This document shows positions 23,393 through 34,440 of a DNA stretch of 34,485 nucleotides, piece after piece. The notes below the pieces were generated by a model, which did not search any database, had not been told where the DNA came from, and saw nothing but the letters and a program-made list of their open reading frames with translations. Both the position numbers and the translations under genes were made by a program. The number at the start of each line of letters is the position of its first letter. Positions within the stretch are counted from its first letter, which is position 1. This DNA is from Sulfurospirillum sp. (GTDB taxonomy: Bacteria > Campylobacterota > Campylobacteria > Campylobacterales > Sulfurospirillaceae), in NCBI GenBank assembly GCA_014859685.1, contig JACUTU010000012.1, forward strand, positions 1-34,485, written 5' to 3'.

Positions 23393-24403
23393 ATGCAATG
23401 GAAAAAAGAAACGATTACTCTGCAAGATGACTCAAGGGTTGAAGCGCAAACTCCAATTATCATCTCTGCAAGCAGAGCGACAGATATTCCTGCTTTTTAT
23501 GGCGAATGGTTTATCAAAAGATGGGAAGATGGATATCTCAAATGGACAAATCCTTTCAATGGACAACCTCTTTATGTAAGTTTTAAAAACGCAAGATGTG
23601 TGGTCTTTTGGAGCAAAAATCCACGAGCGATGATGAAACATCTTGATTGGTTGGATGCACATGTGCCAAACTACTACTTCCAGTTTTCACTCAATGACTA
23701 CGACAAAGAGGGCTATGAAGGCAAAATATCTTCAGTTGAGAGTAGAATAAAAACATTTAAAGAGTTGTCCCAAAGGCTAGGTAAAAAAAGAGTTGTTTGG
23801 CGGTTTGACCCGCTTATCCTCACGCAAGAATTAGGCATAGAAGAGCTTTTAAGAAGAGTCAAAAACATCGGCGATGAGCTACATGCGTAAACTGCAAAGT
23901 TGGTTTTTAGCTTTGTGGATATCTCCATCTACAAAAAAGTCCAATCCAACCTAAACAAAGAGCATGTTCCTTACATAGAGTGGACACAACCGCTTATGGA
24001 TACCTTTGCCAAACGCCTCAGCGAACTTAACAAGAAGTGGGGTTTAGAGCTTGCAACATGTACCGAAAAGATAGATCTTGATACTTACGGCATATCGCAC
24101 AACAAATGTATAGATGATGATCTCATGGTAGATCTTTTTTCGCATGACAAAGAGCTGATGGAGTTTTTAGGCGTAGAGATAGAACCTGCGGATCTCTTTA
24201 GCGATGGCAAAGTTGTCAAAACAAAAAAACTAAAAGACAAAGGACAAAGAGAAGATTGTGGCTGTATCATGAGTAAAGACATAGGAGCTTACAACACTTG
24301 CCCACATGAGTGCAACTACTGCTATGCAAACGCTTCTAAAGAGTTAGCAAAGAAAAACTATCAAAAGTACTTAGAAAATCCAAATAGCGAGAGTATAGTT
24401 TAA
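23393..24403 (+). pseudogene. DUF1848 protein interrupted by an in-frame TAA
   Basis: The two halves, 23393-23890 and from about 23891 to 24403, are in the same frame and together form one DUF1848 protein of about 336 codons. The first half opens I-I-S-A-S-R-A-T-D-I-P-A-F-Y, typical of the family. The second ends with a cysteine cluster, C-P-H-E-C-N-Y-C-Y-A, spaced like a radical-SAM Fe-S site (C-x3-C-x2-C). Only a TAA at 23888-23890 (codon 166) breaks it, within D-E-L-H-A-stop-T-A-K-L-V-F-S-F. This is either a recent nonsense mutation or two separately translated halves; a GTG or TTG restart near 23900 is possible. DUF1848 has no established function. Confidence 0.8.
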
Positions 24404-24593: not shown

Positions 24594-25787
24594 ATGCTTA
24601 AATATATACAAAACAAACAAGTAAGAAATATCAGTAGCATATCCTTAGAGTTTATAAGAGAGCAGTATTTAGAAAAACTCACTTCAAAAAATAGGCTTGT
24701 AGGACTTATAGGGCAAAGAGGTGTAGGCAAAACTACTTTGATGCTTCAGTATCTAAAACAAAACTACAAGCCTTATGAGTATCTCTATTTTAGTGCAGAT
24801 GATATTTACATCATCAACAGTAGCATTTATGATATTGCGGATGAATTTGTTCGTCTTGGTGGAAAAATTATTGTCATAGATGAGATTCATAAGTATCAAA
24901 ACTGGGCGAATGAGATAAAGTCTATCTATGATAGTTTTCCGGAACTCATCATACGATTTAGCGGAAGCTCTATGTTAAATATCTTACATGAGAAATTTGA
25001 CTTAAGCAGACGAGCGGTTATAAGCTATGTGAAGCCTTTAAGTTTTAGAGAGTTTTTAAAACTAGATGCTAAGATAGAACTACCAATACTCACCCTTGAA
25101 GAGATACGCAAAAATCACAATGAAATAAGCTCCACTCTAGCACTAGAACATCCAACTTTATATAAAAACTTTTTAAGATACCTACAAATAGGATATTATC
25201 CATTTTTTATAGAGGATGAAATCGAGTACAAAAACAAACTTTTCAATGCGTGTGAAAAAGTGATAAATGAAGATATTCCATCTTTAAACAAAATAGACTA
25301 CACCCACTTAAGTATCTTCAAAAAGTTTATCGCAAAACTTATCTACTCAAAAGTCCCATTTAAAGTAAACATCGCTGAACTTTGCAGGGAGTTTGAAGTA
25401 TCGCACCCTACACTGGCAACTTACTTGGAGATACTAGAAACCACAAAACTTATAAGGCCTATCAAAAAATACTCAAAAAATATATCGAAAAAACCAGAAA
25501 AACTCCTCTTCTCAAATACAAATTTGCTTTATACTTTTGCTGATGAATTTGGTGTGGAAGTTGATATTGGCACGGTGAGAGAGACATTTTTTGTAAGTTG
25601 TTTTGAGAGTATCTATTATAGTGATGTTGGAGATTTTATTGCAGATGGCATCATTTATGAAGTGGGTGGAAAAAATAAAAAGTTTAAGCAAATCAAAGAT
25701 GTCGAAGATAGTTTTGTGGTAGTTGATACAGACTACTCTATGGAACAAAATAAAATCCCATTGTGGTTGTTCGGGTTTGTGTATTGA
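24594..25787 (+). CDS. AAA-14/DUF4143 ATPase, copy 1
   Basis: The 397-residue protein has a P-loop ATPase domain, with Walker A G-Q-R-G-V-G-K-T-T at about residue 40 and Walker B I-I-V-I-D-E-I-H at about 97. A sensor-like R-F-S-G-S-S follows, then a winged-helix region near 255-300 and the C-terminal DUF4143 domain. This large prokaryotic ATPase family is common in accessory DNA, but its job is not settled. A truncated paralogue tail lies at 22999-23166 and a more distant family member at 32395-33600. Inverted repeats cover its promoter. Confidence 0.9.
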   Translation: MLKYIQNKQVRNISSISLEFIREQYLEKLTSKNRLVGLIGQRGVGKTTLMLQYLKQNYKPYEYLYFSADDIYIINSSIYDIADEFVRLGGKIIVIDEIHKYQNWANEIKSIYDSFPELIIRFSGSSMLNILHEKFDLSRRAVISYVKPLSFREFLKLDAKIELPILTLEEIRKNHNEISSTLALEHPTLYKNFLRYLQIGYYPFFIEDEIEYKNKLFNACEKVINEDIPSLNKIDYTHLSIFKKFIAKLIYSKVPFKVNIAELCREFEVSHPTLATYLEILETTKLIRPIKKYSKNISKKPEKLLFSNTNLLYTFADEFGVEVDIGTVRETFFVSCFESIYYSDVGDFIADGIIYEVGGKNKKFKQIKDVEDSFVVVDTDYSMEQNKIPLWLFGFVY

Positions 25788-25845: not shown

Positions 25846-26420
25846 ATGATAGATGAAAAAATACAAGGTATTATAAATTTAATAGCAATAGCAACACCAA
25901 TTGCAACAATGATAATTACATCAATACTTAGAGGAAAAGAATTATCTTTAAAAGAAAAAGAAATCTTACAGAAAATCACACTAAATAAGCAACAAGAGTT
26001 GTTTTCAAAAGAGATAGAGATATATCAACAGTTGTATTTATTGGCAATCGGTTATAATCAACAAAAACATCAAATTGGCTTACAAATTCCTAATGCAAAA
26101 ATCATTCAATATGAAACAGACTATTCTGTATATGTACCTATTGTAAGGCAAATATTTCATGTGATGCAAGAAAATATTTTTTATATGAGCAAAAAATTAG
26201 ATACCGCATATCAAGAGCTTTTTGATTTGTATGAAGCTGAACTTATGCCTTTTAGTGATAGTAGAAGAATGAATTATCACGAGTCGCCAATACTGATGAA
26301 GAAGAGCTTCTTTTAAATGCACAAGAGAGATTTTATACTAAAAATCAAAAAAAGATAGAAGGCTTTATTGAGCTAATAAAAAATGACTTTAAAGAAAAAC
26401 AAGAATTTTTAAAAGGATAA
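25846..26420 (+). pseudogene. Membrane/coiled-coil protein with an apparent frameshift
   Basis: The frame gives one N-terminal membrane helix (I-A-I-A-T-P-I-A-T-M-I-I-T-S-I-L, about residues 14-29) and a helical charged stretch, and as read it stops at 26316. From about 26270 a different frame continues sensibly, R-V-A-N-T-D-E-E-E-L-L-L-N-A-Q-E-R-F-Y, and ends in K-E-K-Q-E-F-L-K-G-stop at 26420, 4 bases before the next ATG. I therefore think one gene of about 190 codons is broken by a one-base shift near 26262-26275. I do not recognise the family. Confidence 0.55.
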
Positions 26421-26424
26421 AAAT

Positions 26425-27252
26425 ATGCCAAAAGAAATAAAATATACTGCATTTATAGATGTACTTGGATTTTCAAACCATATTGAAAATAAAATAACTA
26501 ATGACAAAGAATCACAAGACTTTATGCAAGATTTTGAAAAAGTTATAAACTATTTTGAATATGAAAAAATTTCTTTTCCTAATCAACATGATGAACTTAA
26601 AGATATTCATTACAATTACACTTGGATTTCAGATACATTTGTGATAACAATCGAATATAATGGAAATAGCACAAATAAAAATTTATCTGGTTTATTGATT
26701 TATTTGTTAGCATTAACAATTTCACAGGTTTATCATTTTTTTGCTAGAAAGTATGGGTTGCTTTTGAGAGGTGCTATTACATCAAAATATACTTTTTTAG
26801 ATAAAAATCTTATTTTAGGTAAAGGAATAGTAGAAGCCGCAAAATTGGAAAAAGAGATTGCTATTTACCCTAGAGTAATATTTGCAGAAGATGTCATTAG
26901 TGATGAGATTATTAATTACATAGCATTGGTGCATAATGATAATAATTTAAATATTGTTTCTAAAGATTTTGATGGATGGTATTTTGTAAATTATCTTGCT
27001 TCATTGCAAGATTTGCCGCCGATGATATCTGTAGGAAATGAAACTAAATTAGCTGAAGCCAAATCAGATCAAATGGAAACAGTAAAGATTTATTCTCAGA
27101 TTATTGATAAAGGCTTGAAAGAAAAAAATTTAAAAATAAGAAGTAAATATTTTTGGCTAAAAGAGTATTTTAATAGAGTATTGCCAAGTGATGGCAAAAC
27201 AAATATGTTTGCTTATAATATCATAGGAGATAAATTTGATAAAAAAAGATAG
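26425..27252 (+). CDS. Putative divergent class III nucleotidyl cyclase-like protein
   Basis: This 275-residue soluble protein has the order of motifs of a class III cyclase domain. F-I-D-V-L-G-F-S near residue 10 fits the first metal aspartate (compare F-x-D-I-x-G-F). S-D-T-F-V-I near 70 fits the second. L-L-R-G-A-I-T-S, then G-K-G-I-V-E-A-A-K-L-E near 132-142, fits the R-G-x-I-x-x-G ... G-x-x-V-N-x-A-x-R-L-E region. The catalytic Asn and Arg of that last motif appear replaced by Glu and Lys, so activity may be altered or lost. It may make or sense a nucleotide, as in Pycsar-type defence, but that is inference. An AAAGGA site precedes the ATG, and the gene is tightly packed between its neighbours. 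Confidence 0.5.
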   Translation: MPKEIKYTAFIDVLGFSNHIENKITNDKESQDFMQDFEKVINYFEYEKISFPNQHDELKDIHYNYTWISDTFVITIEYNGNSTNKNLSGLLIYLLALTISQVYHFFARKYGLLLRGAITSKYTFLDKNLILGKGIVEAAKLEKEIAIYPRVIFAEDVISDEIINYIALVHNDNNLNIVSKDFDGWYFVNYLASLQDLPPMISVGNETKLAEAKSDQMETVKIYSQIIDKGLKEKNLKIRSKYFWLKEYFNRVLPSDGKTNMFAYNIIGDKFDKKR

Positions 27253-28189
27253 TTTAAATGAATTGAAATTAAAACTAGTAAAGCACAAGAGAGTCTTGGC
27301 AACATCCGAAGAAACCCATATACAATATGATTTATCAATAACTCTGGTTGATAAATTAATCCATATTATCGATGAATTATTAAATACCAATAATGATTTA
27401 CATAAACTAGCTTCGACAACTAGATATATATTAGAAACATTGATAATTACTAAGCTTTTGCTCAAGGAAGAGAATTACTTTGTTAAGATATATTTTGCTA
27501 TATATAATCAGCAAGAAAATAAAAGTAATCTAATAATTCAACGACTTAAATATGAAATTGAAATTTTAAAAAAATATGCTGAAGAACATTCCGTACAGAC
27601 TACACAAAATAGATCAAAATATTCAACACAATCAAATGACGACGAACAAAGACTTCAAGCAACAAAAAAAATTATGGAAGAAAACGAAAAAACATTTCAA
27701 CAACTAAAAAAAGAAGCACAAAAAGACATAACTATTTTTATGAATCAACTTAATAATTATGGTTTTGATGCTTTATCTATAATGCTCGAAAAAGACACTT
27801 TACCTGAATATGAAAATAAATTGAAAAAAATTAAATCTTTAAAATTAGAAAAAGCAAAACAGTTATCAAAAGAGCAATGGTTTAAAAGTTATTTTGGTAA
27901 AAGAGTCCAACACACACAGATTTTTCAAAAAATGTTAAAAGACATTCGAAGTTGGCAGGAAAAAGCAGAGGCAGTTGGACTAAAAGAAGAGTACAAGTTA
28001 AATTATGAGATGACCAGTGCTTTTTTGCATTTTACATCTTATAGTCTTCTAACTCCAAATATTGCAAGTCAAGATGAAATAGATTATAAGTATAGGCTTA
28101 TTAATCAATATATTGAACAGATAACTACAAATATAAGTATTTTTAGTAGAGTGAATTTATATGATAAACTCAATATTATGTATGTTTGA
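27236..28189 (+). CDS. Helical protein of unknown function (DUF5677-like?)
   Basis: The 317-residue protein starts with TTG and overlaps the cyclase-like gene by 17 bases, which argues for linked translation. It is almost all helix: residues 20-110 contain regular leucine/isoleucine heptads, a charged linker follows, and the C-terminal half has T-S-A-F-L-H-F-T-S-Y-S-L-L-T-P. That last segment recalls DUF5677-type proteins found in accessory and defence regions; the match is weak and from memory. No catalytic motif or membrane helix is evident. Spacing to the WD40 gene is 21 bases. Confidence 0.7.
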   Translation: MIKKDSLNELKLKLVKHKRVLATSEETHIQYDLSITLVDKLIHIIDELLNTNNDLHKLASTTRYILETLIITKLLLKEENYFVKIYFAIYNQQENKSNLIIQRLKYEIEILKKYAEEHSVQTTQNRSKYSTQSNDDEQRLQATKKIMEENEKTFQQLKKEAQKDITIFMNQLNNYGFDALSIMLEKDTLPEYENKLKKIKSLKLEKAKQLSKEQWFKSYFGKRVQHTQIFQKMLKDIRSWQEKAEAVGLKEEYKLNYEMTSAFLHFTSYSLLTPNIASQDEIDYKYRLINQYIEQITTNISIFSRVNLYDKLNIMYV

Positions 28190-28210: not shown

Positions 28211-29908
28211 ATGAAAAACAACCTCACAACCACAAACAAAAATGCAAAACTAGCACTAACAAAATCAAAAAGTTTACTTAATATTACAAATAGTTTACTA
28301 GCAAATCGTCCAAGTAAAGAGCTAATTGAGAGCTTTGAGAACTTTAGATTTTCATCTGGTTTAGGGCATAGTGGTAATGTAAATTCCGTAGTCATTACCC
28401 AAAATGAGAAATTCGTAGTTAGTGGTAGCTCTGATAAAACCATAAAATTGTGGGATATAAGTAGTGGTAAAGATGTCCGAACTTTTGAAGGGCATAGTGG
28501 CGGTGTAAGTTCTGTAGCTATTACATACTGTGGAAAATACATCGTAAGCGGTGGAAGCTATGATAAAACTATCAAACTATGGGAAATCAATAGTGGCAAG
28601 GAACTACGAACATTTAAAGGGCATAGTAATAGGGTTCTTTCAGTAGCCATAACTCCTGATGGGCAATATATAGTTAGTGGAAGTTGGGATAAAACCATCA
28701 AATTATGGGAGATAAGTAGTGGTAAAGAAGTGCGAACTTTTGAAGGGCATAAGGATAAAGTAACCTCAGTAGTCATGTCTCCAGATGGAAAATACATAGT
28801 TAGCGGAAGTGATGATAAAACTATTAAACTATGGAAAATGAGCAGGGACAAGGAAGTGAGAACATTCAAGTGGCATAAAAGTTATGTAAACTCTGTAACT
28901 ATATCCCCCGATGGGAAGTATATCGTCTCAGGAAGCTTGGATCAAACAGTCAAACTTTGGGAAATAAGTAGTGGAAAATGTTTGCGAACATTTGAGTGGC
29001 ATAGTGGTAGTGTAAACTCAGTAGTAATATCTGCTGATGGAAAATATATAATTAGTGGAAGTTCTGATGAAACTATCAAATTATGGGAGTTAAGTAGTGG
29101 TAAGGAGCTACAAACATTTAAAGGTCATAGGGGCAATATAATTTCTGTAGCTATATCTGCTAATGGGGAAACTATAGTAAGTGGTGAAAGCTATTATAAC
29201 GGTATCAAACTATGGGACATAAGTAGTGGCAAGGAGCTCAAAACATTCAAAGGGCATAGTTGTCGAATGAATTCTGTAGTCATATCCCCAGATGGGAAAT
29301 ATATAGTAAGTGGAAGTCATGATGGAACTATCAAGCTATGGGAGATAAGTTGTGGTAAGAAGGTGCGAACATTTGAGGGGAGTTGGGTATTCTCCGTAGC
29401 TATAACTCCTGATGGGGAATATATAGTATATTGTGCTAGCTATGATGAAAACAACAAACTATGGGAAATTAATAGCGGTAAAGAGTTACTTACATTTGAG
29501 GAATATGATGATTTGGTAAAATCTGAAAACATAACTACAGATAAAAAATATAGAGTAAGTATAATCCAAGATATAATCATCGAACTACGAGAGATAAGTA
29601 GTGACAAGCTCCTTTGCTCTTATGTAACATTTAAAGAAGGTGAATGGCTCTCTTGGACACCAAATGGATATTATAACTGCTCTAATGGGGCTTATCAATA
29701 TTTCTCTTTTGTAGATGATAGCAAAGAGATGCCTGAAGCTGTACCACAAAATCATCCTGTATATAAAGCAAAGAAAAAAGAGATATTACTTAGTGACTAT
29801 ATAGGTGGCACAAATCCATATTCTAAAAATCCACCTCCACAAACAGACATAGGCGAATATGATGCAATACCACAAATAGACATCGACGAAGACGAAATAC
29901 CATTTTAG
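28211..29908 (+). CDS. WD40 propeller protein with N-terminal tag and SSB-like C-terminal tip
   Basis: The 565-residue protein has a short N-terminal tag (T-N-K-N-A-K-L-A-L-T-K-S-K-S-L-L), shared with the DUF1566 protein at 33600. About nine to ten WD40 repeats follow at residues 52-470, most with G-K-Y-I-V-S-G-S-x-D and T-I-K-L-W. The repeats decay toward the end. Next comes E-W-L-S-W-T-P-N-G-Y-Y-N-C-S, a segment I associate with bacterial WD40 conflict proteins. The protein ends in a Pro/polar linker and the acidic tip D-I-D-E-D-E-I-P-F. The tip matches the pattern of the SSB C-terminus (D-D-D-I-P-F in E. coli). No enzyme domain is present, so it is probably a scaffold or sensor. The next gene starts 12 bases after its stop. 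Confidence 0.92.
   Translation: MKNNLTTTNKNAKLALTKSKSLLNITNSLLANRPSKELIESFENFRFSSGLGHSGNVNSVVITQNEKFVVSGSSDKTIKLWDISSGKDVRTFEGHSGGVSSVAITYCGKYIVSGGSYDKTIKLWEINSGKELRTFKGHSNRVLSVAITPDGQYIVSGSWDKTIKLWEISSGKEVRTFEGHKDKVTSVVMSPDGKYIVSGSDDKTIKLWKMSRDKEVRTFKWHKSYVNSVTISPDGKYIVSGSLDQTVKLWEISSGKCLRTFEWHSGSVNSVVISADGKYIISGSSDETIKLWELSSGKELQTFKGHRGNIISVAISANGETIVSGESYYNGIKLWDISSGKELKTFKGHSCRMNSVVISPDGKYIVSGSHDGTIKLWEISCGKKVRTFEGSWVFSVAITPDGEYIVYCASYDENNKLWEINSGKELLTFEEYDDLVKSENITTDKKYRVSIIQDIIIELREISSDKLLCSYVTFKEGEWLSWTPNGYYNCSNGAYQYFSFVDDSKEMPEAVPQNHPVYKAKKKEILLSDYIGGTNPYSKNPPPQTDIGEYDAIPQIDIDEDEIPF
28360..29500 (+). repeat. Tandem WD40 coding repeats, about 126 bases each
   Basis: Eight or nine units of about 126 bases are similar at the DNA level, with near-identical runs such as AAACTATCAAACTATGGGA and GGAAAATACATAGT. 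Such arrays can change copy number by recombination. They also create long open frames on the minus strand that are artefacts. Confidence 0.85.
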
Positions 29909-29920
29909 GAACCAAGCCAA

Positions 29921-32323
29921 ATGACACAAATACTCAAACGATTAGAGATTATAAAATCTAGTATAGCCATAGAAGATGAAGAGGTCATAGATCTTCAAGT
30001 GATGAAACTTCAAAAGCTTGATATTGATGATGATGTAAAAGCTATAGTTACCCACCTTGAAGCCATGAACTATGCGAAAGCTATGAAAGATATAGAAGCT
30101 TATATCTTGAGATATAGCGGTGTGGTGGAGTATGTAGATAGTGAAGTGCAAGGGCTAAAGCTGGAGCTAAAAAGCTTAGAATCCAAACTCCAAGAGCTAG
30201 TAGAACAAAAAACAGAATACCTAAATGACATCGAAGAGTTCAACCGTGAGTACAATCTGCACTTAGGGGAGCTTATCAAAGATATACTCAACCTAAAAAA
30301 AGAGATACTCTACAAAAAAACCATCAAAAAGCAAAAACAAAAAGTAAAATACCAAGAAGATATACAAACTTTCCAAGAGTCAAAAGAGACCATAGATGAA
30401 CTAAAATCTACTATTTCAGAGCTAGAAGATGCACTTGAAACTATAGATGAAGATGATGAAAATTATGATGAACTCTCACATGCATACAACGAACTCAAAG
30501 AGGAGCTTGAAAAGCTAGAAGATGAACTAGAGCTTCAAGAAGAGGAGCTTGAAAAGGCAAAAGAGTTTATAGAAGATGAGAGCATAGAGCAAGAGTATGA
30601 AGAGGTTAAGAGCCATTATGAAGAGTTTGAGAGTGAGTATGAACATATAAAAGAGTCCGTGCAAAACTCCCCAACCCTCAATGATGAAGAGAAAAAAGAG
30701 CTAAAATCACTCTACAAACAAGCAGCAAGACTGTGCCACCCAGACATCGTACCAGATGAGCTAAAAGAAAAAGCTCATGAGCTTATGCAAAAACTCAACG
30801 ATGCCTATAGTAAAAAAGATATATCAAAAGTAAAAGAGATACTCCACTCACTCCAAAATGGCACAAGCTTTGAACTCTCAAGTGAGACCATAGAAGATAA
30901 AGAACTCCTAAAAGCAAAAATCAAAGAGTACCTCAAAAACATCGAAGCCATTAAATCTGAAATAGAAGAGATAAAAGAAGATGAGACATACCAAACTATA
31001 ACCGAGCTTGATGATTGGGATGTGTATTTTGAAGAGTTAAGAGGTGGCTTGGAAGCAGAGAAAGGCAGGCTTAAAGAGGAAGCTAGAGAGGTTTTGGAGG
31101 AGAAAGAGAAAATAGAAGATAATGTATTGATTCAATGGGCAATACAGAACAATATAGATGAGATTCTAGAACATAAAAATCAATTAGAAAATATAAAAAG
31201 GCTTAGATTAAACGATAAGAATCTTACTCATATTCCAAAAGAAATTACTAGTTTATCTAATTTGGCAGAGCTAAAACTTTGGAAAAATAATTTAGTAGAA
31301 TTACCTGAAGAAATAAGCTCAATGAGTTCTTTAGAGGTATTGACTTTATCAAATAACAACCTGATAAAATTACCAAAAAATATAACACAGCTTAAACTAA
31401 AAAAACTACAACTTCGTGATAATAAATCGTTGATTCTAACTAATGAACAAATACAATGGATAAAAAAACTTAAAGAAAATGGTTGTGATTTTGAAATGGA
31501 TAAAGATTTATTGAGTAGGAAAGATATAGAAACTACACAAGAAAAGAAAATATCTAAAAAAACAGGTGTAACGATTGTTAAAAAGAAAAATCAAAAAGAA
31601 AAAGAAAAATCAGCAACCATTACTAAAGAGGATAGCCCATACGCAAAACATATCCACTCTATTGAAAACATCAAATTTGAAAAGATAAGAAAATATTGCG
31701 AAAATCTCTCAAAATCAAATGAAGCCGATGAGATGCAAAAGCAGTTAGGTAAAACCGGGAAGATGTACAAAGCACTTATCTATAGCTCCCTTGAAGTATT
31801 TATAGAATATCTTAATGGTGAAACCATCACATTGTGTGATTGGGGATGTTCTCAAGGGATAGCCTCTATGCTAGTACTTGACTATATCAAAGAAAAACAA
31901 CTAGATATAAAAGTATCTGATGTAATCCTCATAGATGATGACACAAAATCACTCAGCCGTGCCATGGTACAAGTAGAAGCACTCGCACAAGATGATATAA
32001 AATTCACGCCTATAAAAAGTGATGATAATAGTATTTCCGATACAATAAAATCTATTAAAAACAATAAAGTGATAAATCTTTTTGCAAATGATAAGATACC
32101 TACAAACTTTTGGACTATCAATCATGATATTTTTCATGATAGTTATTTGTTGTGTGTATCAAATGAAAACAAAGAATTTGTTAATGAAGTTTATGAAACT
32201 ATAAATATTTTTCTGCATGTACAAGATGTGTCTATAAGAGACGGTAATATTGGTAGGTTTGATAAATATGAGAGGATATTTAGAACTTTAATAGATATAG
32301 ATAGTGATGAGATACCATTTTAG
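29921..32323 (+). CDS. Coiled-coil / J-like / LRR / methyltransferase-like fusion with SSB-like tip
   Basis: This 800-residue protein has several parts. Residues 1-75 are helical. About 75-240 form a long acidic coiled coil. A J-domain-like helical pair around 260-310 bears H-P-D at 273-275 (L-Y-K-Q-A-A-R-L-C-H-P-D). A further coiled coil follows. About three leucine-rich repeats occupy 426-500 (L-R-L-N-D-K-N-L-T-H-I-P). A Lys-rich linker leads to a Rossmann-like domain from about 575, with D-W-G-C-S-Q-G-I-A at 640 resembling the SAM-binding motif I. The C-terminus is D-I-D-S-D-E-I-P-F, nearly identical to that of the WD40 protein upstream. I know of no named family with this order. J-domain and methyltransferase calls rest on short motifs; the coiled coils and LRRs are clear. 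Confidence 0.85.
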   Translation: MTQILKRLEIIKSSIAIEDEEVIDLQVMKLQKLDIDDDVKAIVTHLEAMNYAKAMKDIEAYILRYSGVVEYVDSEVQGLKLELKSLESKLQELVEQKTEYLNDIEEFNREYNLHLGELIKDILNLKKEILYKKTIKKQKQKVKYQEDIQTFQESKETIDELKSTISELEDALETIDEDDENYDELSHAYNELKEELEKLEDELELQEEELEKAKEFIEDESIEQEYEEVKSHYEEFESEYEHIKESVQNSPTLNDEEKKELKSLYKQAARLCHPDIVPDELKEKAHELMQKLNDAYSKKDISKVKEILHSLQNGTSFELSSETIEDKELLKAKIKEYLKNIEAIKSEIEEIKEDETYQTITELDDWDVYFEELRGGLEAEKGRLKEEAREVLEEKEKIEDNVLIQWAIQNNIDEILEHKNQLENIKRLRLNDKNLTHIPKEITSLSNLAELKLWKNNLVELPEEISSMSSLEVLTLSNNNLIKLPKNITQLKLKKLQLRDNKSLILTNEQIQWIKKLKENGCDFEMDKDLLSRKDIETTQEKKISKKTGVTIVKKKNQKEKEKSATITKEDSPYAKHIHSIENIKFEKIRKYCENLSKSNEADEMQKQLGKTGKMYKALIYSSLEVFIEYLNGETITLCDWGCSQGIASMLVLDYIKEKQLDIKVSDVILIDDDTKSLSRAMVQVEALAQDDIKFTPIKSDDNSISDTIKSIKNNKVINLFANDKIPTNFWTINHDIFHDSYLLCVSNENKEFVNEVYETINIFLHVQDVSIRDGNIGRFDKYERIFRTLIDIDSDEIPF

Positions 32324-32394: not shown

Positions 32395-33600
32395 ATGAAA
32401 AAAAGAACATTAGAATCTATACTCAAAATCGCCCTTGATACTTTTCCTGTAGTGCTTCTAAACGGTGCTAGACAAGTGGGTAAATCAACTCTTGCACTTG
32501 ATAACTTTCAAAACTATCTTACCTTTGATGATGGGGAGCTTCGACTTTATGCAAAGGAAAATCCAAAAGGTTTTTTAAAAAATCTCGACCTGCCTATTTG
32601 CCTTGATGAGATACAAAAAGTACCGACACTCTTAGAATATATCAAGATGCATATAGACTCAAAAAGAGTAAATGGAGATTTTTTACTTACTGGAAGTTCA
32701 AATGTCCTAGACCATAAAGAGAGTAAAGATACTTTAGCGGGCAGACTTTGTGAACTACGGCTTCATCCACTTAGCTCAAAAGAGAAAAATGATAAGCCAA
32801 ATGAAAATATCATTCAAATGCTATTAAACAGAGATTTTAAACTAGCCAAAAAAGATTATACCGATGAAGTATGTGAGCATATTTTAGATGGTGGGTATCC
32901 TGAGATTTTAGAGCTTGGGGGATTGTCAAAGGATTTATGGTTTACCTCTTATATCGCCACATATATAGAAAGAGATGCAAGAGATTTAGCAGATATAAGA
33001 GATATAGATAGTTTTATAAAGTTTGTAAATGTACTAGCTTCAAGAAGTGCAACGATACTCAATAAATCAAGTCTAAGTAATGATATAGGGACAAAAGATA
33101 TTACTACAGATAACTATCTTTCTATCATAAGTCGTATTTATCAAGCGACACTTCTAAAACCATATTTTGTAAATATCGGCAAACAGTTTATAAAGTCTCC
33201 AAAAGTTTTTTTCAACGATACTGGGGTACTTTGTAGTTTGCTTCGTATTAATTCAAAAGAAAAACTTCTAAGTTCAACATATAGCGGACAAATTTACGAG
33301 ACATATATATTTTGTGAACTTCAAAAACATCTCTCATATTTACAAAAATCGGCACAAATGTTTCACTATAGAACCAATGATAAAAAAGAGATAGACTTCA
33401 TCATAGAGGTTAACAATGAGATATTGGCTATCGAAGTAAAACAAAGTAGTAGCGTAAAAAAAGAGGACTTCAAGCATATTATAGACCTGCAAAATAGATA
33501 TGATGAAAAGAGATGCTTGGGCATAGTGTTTTATAATGGAGAGATGGTGGTTGAGTTTAGTGATGATTTGGTAGCTATACCTTTTGGGATATTTTTGTGA
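32395..33600 (+). CDS. AAA-14/DUF4143 ATPase, copy 2
   Basis: The 401-residue protein has Walker A L-N-G-A-R-Q-V-G-K-S-T near residue 22, Walker B L-P-I-C-L-D-E-I-Q near 62, and L-L-T-G-S-S-N near 98. The C-terminal DUF4143 domain ends with a nuclease-like core, E-I-D-F-I-I-E-V and L-A-I-E-V-K, the D-x(n)-E-x-K arrangement seen in this family. It differs from copy 1 in sequence and subfamily. Its stop overlaps the next start (TGATG), so it is translationally coupled to the DUF1566 gene. Confidence 0.92.
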   Translation: MKKRTLESILKIALDTFPVVLLNGARQVGKSTLALDNFQNYLTFDDGELRLYAKENPKGFLKNLDLPICLDEIQKVPTLLEYIKMHIDSKRVNGDFLLTGSSNVLDHKESKDTLAGRLCELRLHPLSSKEKNDKPNENIIQMLLNRDFKLAKKDYTDEVCEHILDGGYPEILELGGLSKDLWFTSYIATYIERDARDLADIRDIDSFIKFVNVLASRSATILNKSSLSNDIGTKDITTDNYLSIISRIYQATLLKPYFVNIGKQFIKSPKVFFNDTGVLCSLLRINSKEKLLSSTYSGQIYETYIFCELQKHLSYLQKSAQMFHYRTNDKKEIDFIIEVNNEILAIEVKQSSSVKKEDFKHIIDLQNRYDEKRCLGIVFYNGEMVVEFSDDLVAIPFGIFL

Positions 33601-34100
33601 TGGATAAAAGTTTAGTTGCTACCAATCAGAATGCCAAAGTGGCTCTATCTAAGGCAAAAGAGTTATTAAAAAGCAGTAAGTCAATTACAAAGAAATATAT
33701 TGATATTATCAATTTTAAAAATGATATTCAAACATGGAAAGATAAAGATACAGGGTTGATTTGGGAAATAAAATCCAGTAACAATATTGATGAAATATAT
33801 ACATACAATGAAGCCGTAAGTTATGTACAAAATCTTAATATAACAAAATTTGGTGGTATTAACAATTGGAAAATACCGAGTATTAATGATTTAGAAACTT
33901 TATCAACTCAAGAAATAAACAATAATTTATACATAAAAAGAATTTTATCTGAAAATAGCGATTGGGCATATTGGTCATCTAGTGTTGCTGCAGAAAATAA
34001 AAGCTATGTATATTATTATAATTTTGGCGAGAAAAGACTGGAGTTTCAAAATTTTAAATGCTACTTAAGATGTGTCAGCAAAGGAAACTGTGATGAATAA
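33600..34100 (+). CDS. DUF1566 (Lcl C-terminal-like) protein with WD40-type tag
   Basis: The 166-residue protein starts at the ATG at 33600 within the TGATG overlap; a GTG one codon earlier is in frame. Its first 30 residues (T-N-Q-N-A-K-V-A-L-S-K-A-K-E-L-L) repeat the N-terminal tag of the WD40 protein. Residues 48-160 form a DUF1566 domain: W-K-D-K-D-T-G-L-I-W, then N-W-K-I-P-S-I-N-D-L-E-T-L, then Y-W-S-S-S, then L-R-C-V. This fold is related to ligand-binding and sulfatase-modifying-factor-like domains. With no signal peptide it should be cytosolic, unlike Legionella Lcl. It overlaps the next gene by 8 bases. Confidence 0.85.
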   Translation: MDKSLVATNQNAKVALSKAKELLKSSKSITKKYIDIINFKNDIQTWKDKDTGLIWEIKSSNNIDEIYTYNEAVSYVQNLNITKFGGINNWKIPSINDLETLSTQEINNNLYIKRILSENSDWAYWSSSVAAENKSYVYYYNFGEKRLEFQNFKCYLRCVSKGNCDE

Positions 34101-34440
34101 TGAATCTAACTACACTCTTGGAGTAATAAAGTGGTATTCTGATGAAAATAGGTACGGAGTTATTGAAGAGGTAAATACTCACAAAGAAGTATTTTTACAT
34201 TTTAAAAATTGGGTAGATAATTACTCTATTACAAATATAACAATCTCACTAGTTTTAGTATTTGAGGTTGCAGAAGAAAAAAACAAGATTACTGCAAAAA
34301 ATTGCAGATTTTTTGATTATTCAAAAAAAGATTATATGCTACTTTATAAATTGACATTTATGTATGAACACTATCTGTATGTAAAGGGCGAAAACAACAG
34401 AGAAACTAAAATTGTAAATATTTTAAACAATCAAGCGTAA
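34093..34440 (+). CDS. Cold-shock-domain-like small protein
   Basis: I start at the ATG at 34093 (M-N-N-E-S-N-Y-T-L-G); an earlier in-frame start at 34072 lies deeper inside the DUF1566 gene. Residues 6-70 resemble a cold-shock OB-fold: G-V-I-K-W-Y-S-D-E-N-R-Y-G-V-I, then E-V-F-L-H-F, then V-F-E-V-A-E-E-K-N-K-I-T-A-K-N-C. The usual K-G-F-G-F is changed to N-R-Y-G-V, so nucleic acid binding may be altered. The last 45 residues are not part of the fold and match nothing I know. Confidence 0.7.
   Translation: MNNESNYTLGVIKWYSDENRYGVIEEVNTHKEVFLHFKNWVDNYSITNITISLVLVFEVAEEKNKITAKNCRFFDYSKKDYMLLYKLTFMYEHYLYVKGENNRETKIVNILNNQA

Follow-up and report, generated by a model that had tools for sequence, protein, structure and literature searches.

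Results

The coding sequence at 29921–32323 on the plus strand of contig JACUTU010000012.1 from Sulfurospirillum sp. (assembly GCA_014859685.1; the whole stretch of 34,485 nucleotides, nt, is referred to as the window) is a genuine, uninterrupted open reading frame (ORF) of 800 amino acids (aa) with no internal stops, and its product, hereafter the target, carries an acidic C-terminal tip of the type found on the host's single-stranded DNA-binding protein (SSB). The target ends LIDIDSDEIPF, the adjacent WD40 protein ends AIPQIDIDEDEIPF and the SSB of the source genome ends DIPDIDIDADEIPF, with IPDIDIDADEIPF as its acidic docking tip. On sequence grounds it is well supported that the tails of the target and the WD40 protein mimic the host SSB tip, and these two near copies of the SSB tail suggest that the island to which both genes belong has borrowed a docking signal from DNA repair. 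We give about an even chance to the reading that the target belongs, as a modular subunit, to a conflict island of mobile appearance that is probably directed against phages, and that it docks on the SSB-tip pockets of a co-encoded helicase or of host repair enzymes.

The tail in the source genome

When the whole genome of 2,096,005 bases was searched for the pattern DEIPF followed by a stop, three sites appeared, namely the target, the WD40 gene and ssb, against an expectation of 0.04 calculated from the base composition of the window, while the reversed motif gave no site across the same genome. The residues common to the three tails are encoded by different codons, and on this ground the reading that the tails are copies of one repeated piece of DNA was rejected. 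In the AlphaFold 2 (AF2) model the tail is disordered (residues 235–241 of the modelled fragment). PF00436, representing the oligonucleotide-binding (OB) fold, matches neither the target nor the WD40 protein, and the target is therefore not an SSB; the tail alone is SSB-like.

The island tails resemble the SSB C-terminal acidic tip (SSB-Ct) in having an acidic run and then I/L-P-F at the extreme C-terminus, in being disordered and in matching the host, but differ in being borne by proteins without an OB fold (J-leucine-rich repeat-methyltransferase, WD40, leucine-rich repeat (LRR) and superfamily 1 (SF1) helicase proteins). According to PMC7913777, over 17 partner proteins are bound by MDFDDDIPF, the last nine residues of E. 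coli SSB; the final Pro-Phe occupies a pocket of RecO, and the isolated tip peptide is enough to stimulate unwinding by RecQ and the ATPase of RadD.

Recurrence of the tail in relatives

In the genome G271, from another family of the same order, a near-syntenic locus holds the same tailed gene pair, its WD40 protein ending MPEIDIDDDEIPF and its full-length relative of the target ending PTIDIDSDAIPF. The identity between the two target proteins varies by region, with 150/224 in the N-terminal region (the first ~75 residues being unrelated), 160/171 in the J module, 135/135 in the LRR block, 185/225 in the methyltransferase domain, the end of which has diverged, and 9/10 in the tail. G271 has eight additional linker residues ahead of the tail, and the island therefore recombines without losing it. 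The tail is present on six of the eight close methyltransferase relatives, the target and G271 included, the others being two proteins of G001 (452 aa, YIDEDEIPF; 327 aa, NIDDDEILF), one of L132 (577 aa, IIDIDDDEIPF) and one of L134 (LDIAEDEIPF). In other Campylobacterota the relatives carry it behind different linkers and in different codons. An LRR protein of G083 ends IEIDDDEIPF, and among the intact co-encoded SF1 helicases of Bacteroidota two of 14 are tailed (EDHDDLPF in L171 and GNNNDLPF in L142), in genomes whose SSBs end DDNDDLPF and DEEDDLPF.

When the C-terminal 97 residues of the WD40 protein were used as the query against 398 genomes, matches at E ≤ 0.001 came from 11 genomes, in five of which (G215, G205, G237, G303 and G314) the query matched the C-terminus of SSB, weakly (2.4e-4 to 9.1e-4). 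The WD40 protein of G271 has the tail and the other WD40-type matches (L250, L251, L252, L257, L259) end without it. The 56 loci picked by domain homology contain 618 complete ORFs with a length of 100 aa or more; the tail occurs on 11 of these, ten island proteins and one SSB, and each of seven permuted or altered motifs occurs on none.

Domain structure of the target

The first-pass annotation, made from the sequence alone, had read the target as one 800-residue chain joining a coiled coil, an HPD-bearing J-like helical pair, leucine-rich repeats and a C-terminal methyltransferase-like Rossmann domain; the J, LRR and methyltransferase-like calls hold, but the SSB-like end (residues 791–800), which the product of the adjacent gene also has, had been overlooked. 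It had also been unable to place the architecture in a family, and no full-length model exists for it in Pfam, NCBIfam, PHROGs or PADLOC; the architecture is nevertheless not unique, as full-length relatives occur in three other genomes (L205, L046/L131 and L132).

The N-terminus is evidently acidic and helical, the coiled coil being putative, and weak matches to this region in PADLOC (DruC1, LmuB, JetC) and NCBIfam (Rad50/ASRP) were set aside as coiled-coil noise. The LRR match exceeds the Pfam cut-off (41 bits against 27, best stretch at residues 424–481), and the NCBIfam matches XopAE/XopAC/XopL on the same repeats were rejected at 40–48 bits against cut-offs of 450–600.

For the J domain, PF00226 matches the target alone weakly and below the Pfam cut-off (E 0.0011 for the full length, 1.3e-4 for the fragment), and it matches all 12 homologues at E ≤ 0.1 (best 1.2e-7), in each of which LCHPD is invariant. 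All 13 matches of a J-module profile against PDB sequences at E ≤ 0.01 are J proteins, among them auxilin, DnaJ 2, DNAJA3 and mL77, and stand-alone J-module relatives on enterobacterial plasmids bear a DnaJ annotation. The AF2 model of the module (pLDDT 81, pTM 0.41) places helices II and III around HPD; because long helices dominate this model in the fold search, the call, which is supported, rests on sequence profiles. The HPD-bearing helical pair is shared with DnaJ co-chaperones. What sets the target apart from them is the position of the module, which has a long acidic helical region on one side and LRR or methyltransferase domains on the other.

The C-terminal 241 residues were modelled with a pLDDT of 88.1 and a pTM of 0.87, and the model supports a class I S-adenosylmethionine methyltransferase fold. 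Its best VIA match (Z 13.8, root-mean-square deviation 3.3, 191 residues aligned) is 8csr_7, from intermediates in the assembly of the human mitoribosomal small subunit, whose chain 7 we take to be METTL17 (METTL17/Rsm22 type), and the closest solved folds presumably include ribosome-assembly factors. Further VIA matches are EgtD (Z 12.5) and GRAS domains (Z 11.7), and the best Foldseek match is GidB (E 7.5e-6). These class I enzymes and folds are alike in structure while sequence identity is 8–15%, and a profile of the domain gave no match among PDB sequences; relatives of the domain match PF13847 weakly (1.6e-4 and 7.8e-6). In the motif DWxCxQ (DWGCSQG, residues 640–646 of the target) D, W, C and Q are invariant in all seven sequences of alignment A1, variants being DWGAGQG in L134 and EWGCEQG in the 883 aa protein of L132. 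The earlier suggestion that this domain could be the effector is unproven, given its likeness to presumed ribosome-assembly factors.

The J module is found alone beside an LRR gene (L048, L209, L210), fused to LRR (L208, L211), fused to LRR and methyltransferase (the target, G271, G116, L132) and fused to a protein of the methyltransferase-DUF4145 type (L207). G083 and L135 combine a helical region and the methyltransferase fold in a single protein, the similarity of G083 to the target skipping the HPD region. The three genomes with J-module and LRR genes side by side belong to family f9; in them the pair keeps constant gene surroundings that look like housekeeping ones, and the fused form may have arisen from it. 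A scan of viral contigs gave two weak relatives alone, and searches of phages and plasmids gave LRR and J-module matches alone, with no full-length relative.

Gene content and order of the island

The coordinates of the target, its parts and the neighbouring genes are collected in Table 1.

Table 1. Features of the target and its surroundings, in window positions
Feature	Positions	Strand	Basis or remark
DUF1848 gene with in-frame TAA at 23888–23890	23393–24403	+	intact beside relatives
AAA_14 ATPase, start of the island	24594–25787	+	PF13173, 2.9e-26
Three genes without confident family (25846–26316, 26425–27252, 27236–28189)	25846–28189	+	last one: DUF5677 match below cut-off
Adjacent WD40 protein, 565 aa, 12 nt upstream of target; tail IPQIDIDEDEIPF, last 10 codons at 29876–29905	28211–29908	+	
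Target: helical N-terminus, J domain, LRR, methyltransferase fold, SSB-like tail	29921–32323	+	ORF, 800 aa
Acidic helical N-terminal region, presumed coiled coil, residues 1–224	29921–30592	+	sequence, homologues
J-domain module, residues 225–395; HPD, residues 273–275, at 30737–30745	30593–31105	+	profiles; AF2 helices II and III flank HPD
Leucine-rich repeats, about residues 404–525	31130–31495	+	PF13855, 1.6e-10; residues 396–530 identical in G271
Class I methyltransferase-fold domain, residues 566–790; DWGCSQG at 31838–31858	31616–32290	+	AF2, fold search
SSB-tip-like tail IDIDSDEIPF, residues 791–800	32291–32320	+	sequence, homologues
AAA_14/DUF4143 ATPase	32395–33600	+	family match; retained beside G271 orthologue
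Lcl_C protein; N-terminal peptide common to island WD40 and LRR proteins	33597–34100	+	family match
Cold-shock-domain protein	34072–34440	+	PF00313, 1.7e-8

The window contig ends shortly past the target. On C16, another contig of the same genome, lie two LRR genes, a gene that matches TerB weakly (E 0.013), genes for an SF1 helicase and for a 2CompART ADP-ribosyltransferase (ART; PF22546, E 3.5e-21, at L007:2474–3766), one for a methyltransferase-fold protein with DUF4145 at its end, and a further LRR gene. In G271 both parts of the island lie on one contig, the PF22546 ART standing on the same contig as the target orthologue, in the order DUF1848 (intact, 94.6% identical to the window copy over 336 residues), ATPase, LRR, two small genes, tailed WD40, tailed target orthologue, ATPase, LRR, SF1 helicase, ART, methyltransferase-DUF4145 and LRR. 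The order helicase-ART-methyltransferase recurs in L132, L134, G001 and many Bacteroidota loci, DUF1848 stands beside many such loci, and in the Bacteroidota locus L139 the methyltransferase domain is fused to helicase and PIN domain. The complete island of L132 (CAMCYD010000001.1) has an AbiEii-type pair between its two methyltransferase genes. Of 398 genomes of the order, five have the ART family and 12 have the J module, a rare and patchy distribution such as would be expected for mobile conflict genes.

In island proteins of three kinds (WD40, LRR and Lcl_C), unrelated domains are preceded by a common N-terminal peptide with the pattern TNQNAKxALxKSKxLLNIT. It is carried by the products of 28211–29908 and 33597–34100 in the window and of L007:6757–7293, L205:6680–7606, L205:12250–13632 and L132:1809–3233, and could be a second docking peptide.

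Compared with known systems, the island resembles the 2CompART/2CompARG systems (PF22546, PF22545) in holding PF22546, L171 holding both families, and differs from them in the SF1 helicase, the methyltransferase-fold, DUF4145 and LRR/WD40 subunits and the SSB-like tails. The co-encoded SF1 helicase is similar to UvrD-like defence helicases (GajB, Nhi, AbiO and those associated with defence reverse transcriptases, DRT); neither GajA, a Nhi fusion nor a reverse transcriptase was found among the genes scanned, no search being aimed at the last. The island DUF1848 resembles RTasDUF1848 of PADLOC, a DRT accessory, and a term search of PMC9503650 and PMC7159879 gave no occurrence of DUF1848.

Similar tails on other proteins

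A pattern survey of 149 genomes found a site for [DE][DE]IPF followed by a stop in 126 of them; the loci examined were 30 matched loci together with regions of 22 multi-site genomes, some genomes such as G037 lying outside. The non-SSB proteins with such ends include at least two DarT proteins, at L087:4006–5940 (EDEIPF) and L117:1643–2617 (GEEIPF), with family matches of 8.5e-23 and 2e-16, so that SSB-like ends are seen on ADP-ribosyltransferases of single-stranded DNA. The tail is not a general feature of DarT, since two of 30 sampled DarT places end [DE][DE]IPF (by a crude choice of frame, one locus being frameless). A CAP12/Pycsar-type TIR protein at L094:4582–5418 ends NDDIPF (CAP12-TIR, 1.5e-33), a Phage_GPA-type replication protein at L106:4797–6062 ends VEEIPF (6.9e-16) and a DUF736 protein of L095 (170 aa, minus strand) ends PEIDIDEDDIPF. 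Besides these, the survey yielded the LRR protein from the G083 island, a pair of proteins without family (L086, L111) and chance ends.

Discussion

The island core consists of the SF1 helicase, the 2CompART ADP-ribosyltransferase and the second methyltransferase-fold protein with its DUF4145 (HEPN-like) end. In the proposed mechanism the tail would dock in the Pro-Phe pocket used by SSB partner proteins and so bring the LRR/WD40 subunits to such a partner, either the co-encoded SF1 helicase or host repair and replication enzymes, which it may tether or activate at single-stranded DNA. Recognition by LRR or WD40 would thereby be coupled to the helicase-ADP-ribosyltransferase core, and the J domain would bring in DnaK, which may serve for assembly or resetting of the complex.

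Several points weigh against this proposal. The partner of the tail is suggested by likeness to the SSB tip, the probable anti-phage role by gene context and the putative methyl transfer by the modelled fold. No PADLOC model covers the whole gene set, and no J protein was among the listed matches of the J-region fold search, where long helices dominate the model. The LRR block, identical in G271, does not look like that of a fast-evolving sensor when the two sequences are compared. The tail is missing from two of the eight close methyltransferase relatives (G116, 859 aa; L132, 883 aa), from the island of G375 and from 12 of the 14 intact Bacteroidota SF1 helicases, including those of L141, L161 and L168, whose genomes have SSBs ending DDLPF; G375 and most Bacteroidota loci thus rule out that the tail is essential to every such system.

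The position of the tails bears on two other explanations. They occur on recognition-type subunits (LRR, WD40) and track the SSB tip of the lineage, as they would if these proteins showed the tip as bait, on which phage proteins able to bind host SSB or to take its place would dock and so trigger the island. This decoy or guard arrangement is held to be unlikely; the presence of tails also on stand-alone methyltransferase-fold proteins and helicases speaks against it. A tail serving only as a contact within the island's own complex, for example with the SF1 helicase, its likeness to SSB arising since that helicase also binds SSB, would fit L132 and L134, where a tailed methyltransferase protein is encoded directly upstream of the helicase, but we consider it distinctly improbable. 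Other genes separate the target and WD40 genes from the helicase, the locus of G083 has a tailed LRR protein and neither helicase nor ART within the stretch examined, and the tail is found on Bacteroidota helicases themselves (two cases), for which reason host or phage partners are favoured over a strictly internal contact.

Very little probability is given to a housekeeping role, such as RNA modification, in which the methyltransferase domain would work in the manner of mitochondrial small-subunit assembly factors and the acidic tail would have no special function. In favour of it, chains of mitochondrial small-subunit assembly intermediates are among the best structural neighbours of the methyltransferase domain, and the surroundings of the J and LRR genes are constant in three genomes; the patchy spread of the J module and the ART, the toxin-like neighbours and the retention of the tail despite changed codons and linkers all speak against it. 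Hardly credible is an accident of recombination, in which an unselected peptide was spread by exchange of gene ends through a DNA repeat or gene conversion. The island does recombine, gene ends being swapped between G000 and G271, but the tail codons differ among target, WD40 gene and ssb, the tail survives linker change in six of eight relatives and the altered-motif controls were all negative.

Reaching beyond the docking of the target, the SSB acidic tip may be a general docking code borrowed by conflict systems, the host's own tip having been acquired independently by LRR, WD40, methyltransferase-fold, helicase, DarT and CAP12-TIR proteins, either to home on sites where single-stranded DNA is processed or to lure phage proteins that attach to SSB or substitute for it; this wider idea is put forward tentatively, as rather doubtful. 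SSB-tip copies on defence proteins are not reported in the literature found (mostly non-subscription papers, without bioRxiv), in which the term 2CompART led to unrelated papers alone.

The SSB tip is a hub peptide for replication and repair enzymes, and its copies on recognition-type subunits of a defence-like island provide a concrete, testable tie between conflict systems and the host machinery for single-stranded DNA. Tails that agree in type with the SSB tip of their own host also provide a simple sequence handle by which more such proteins can be found.
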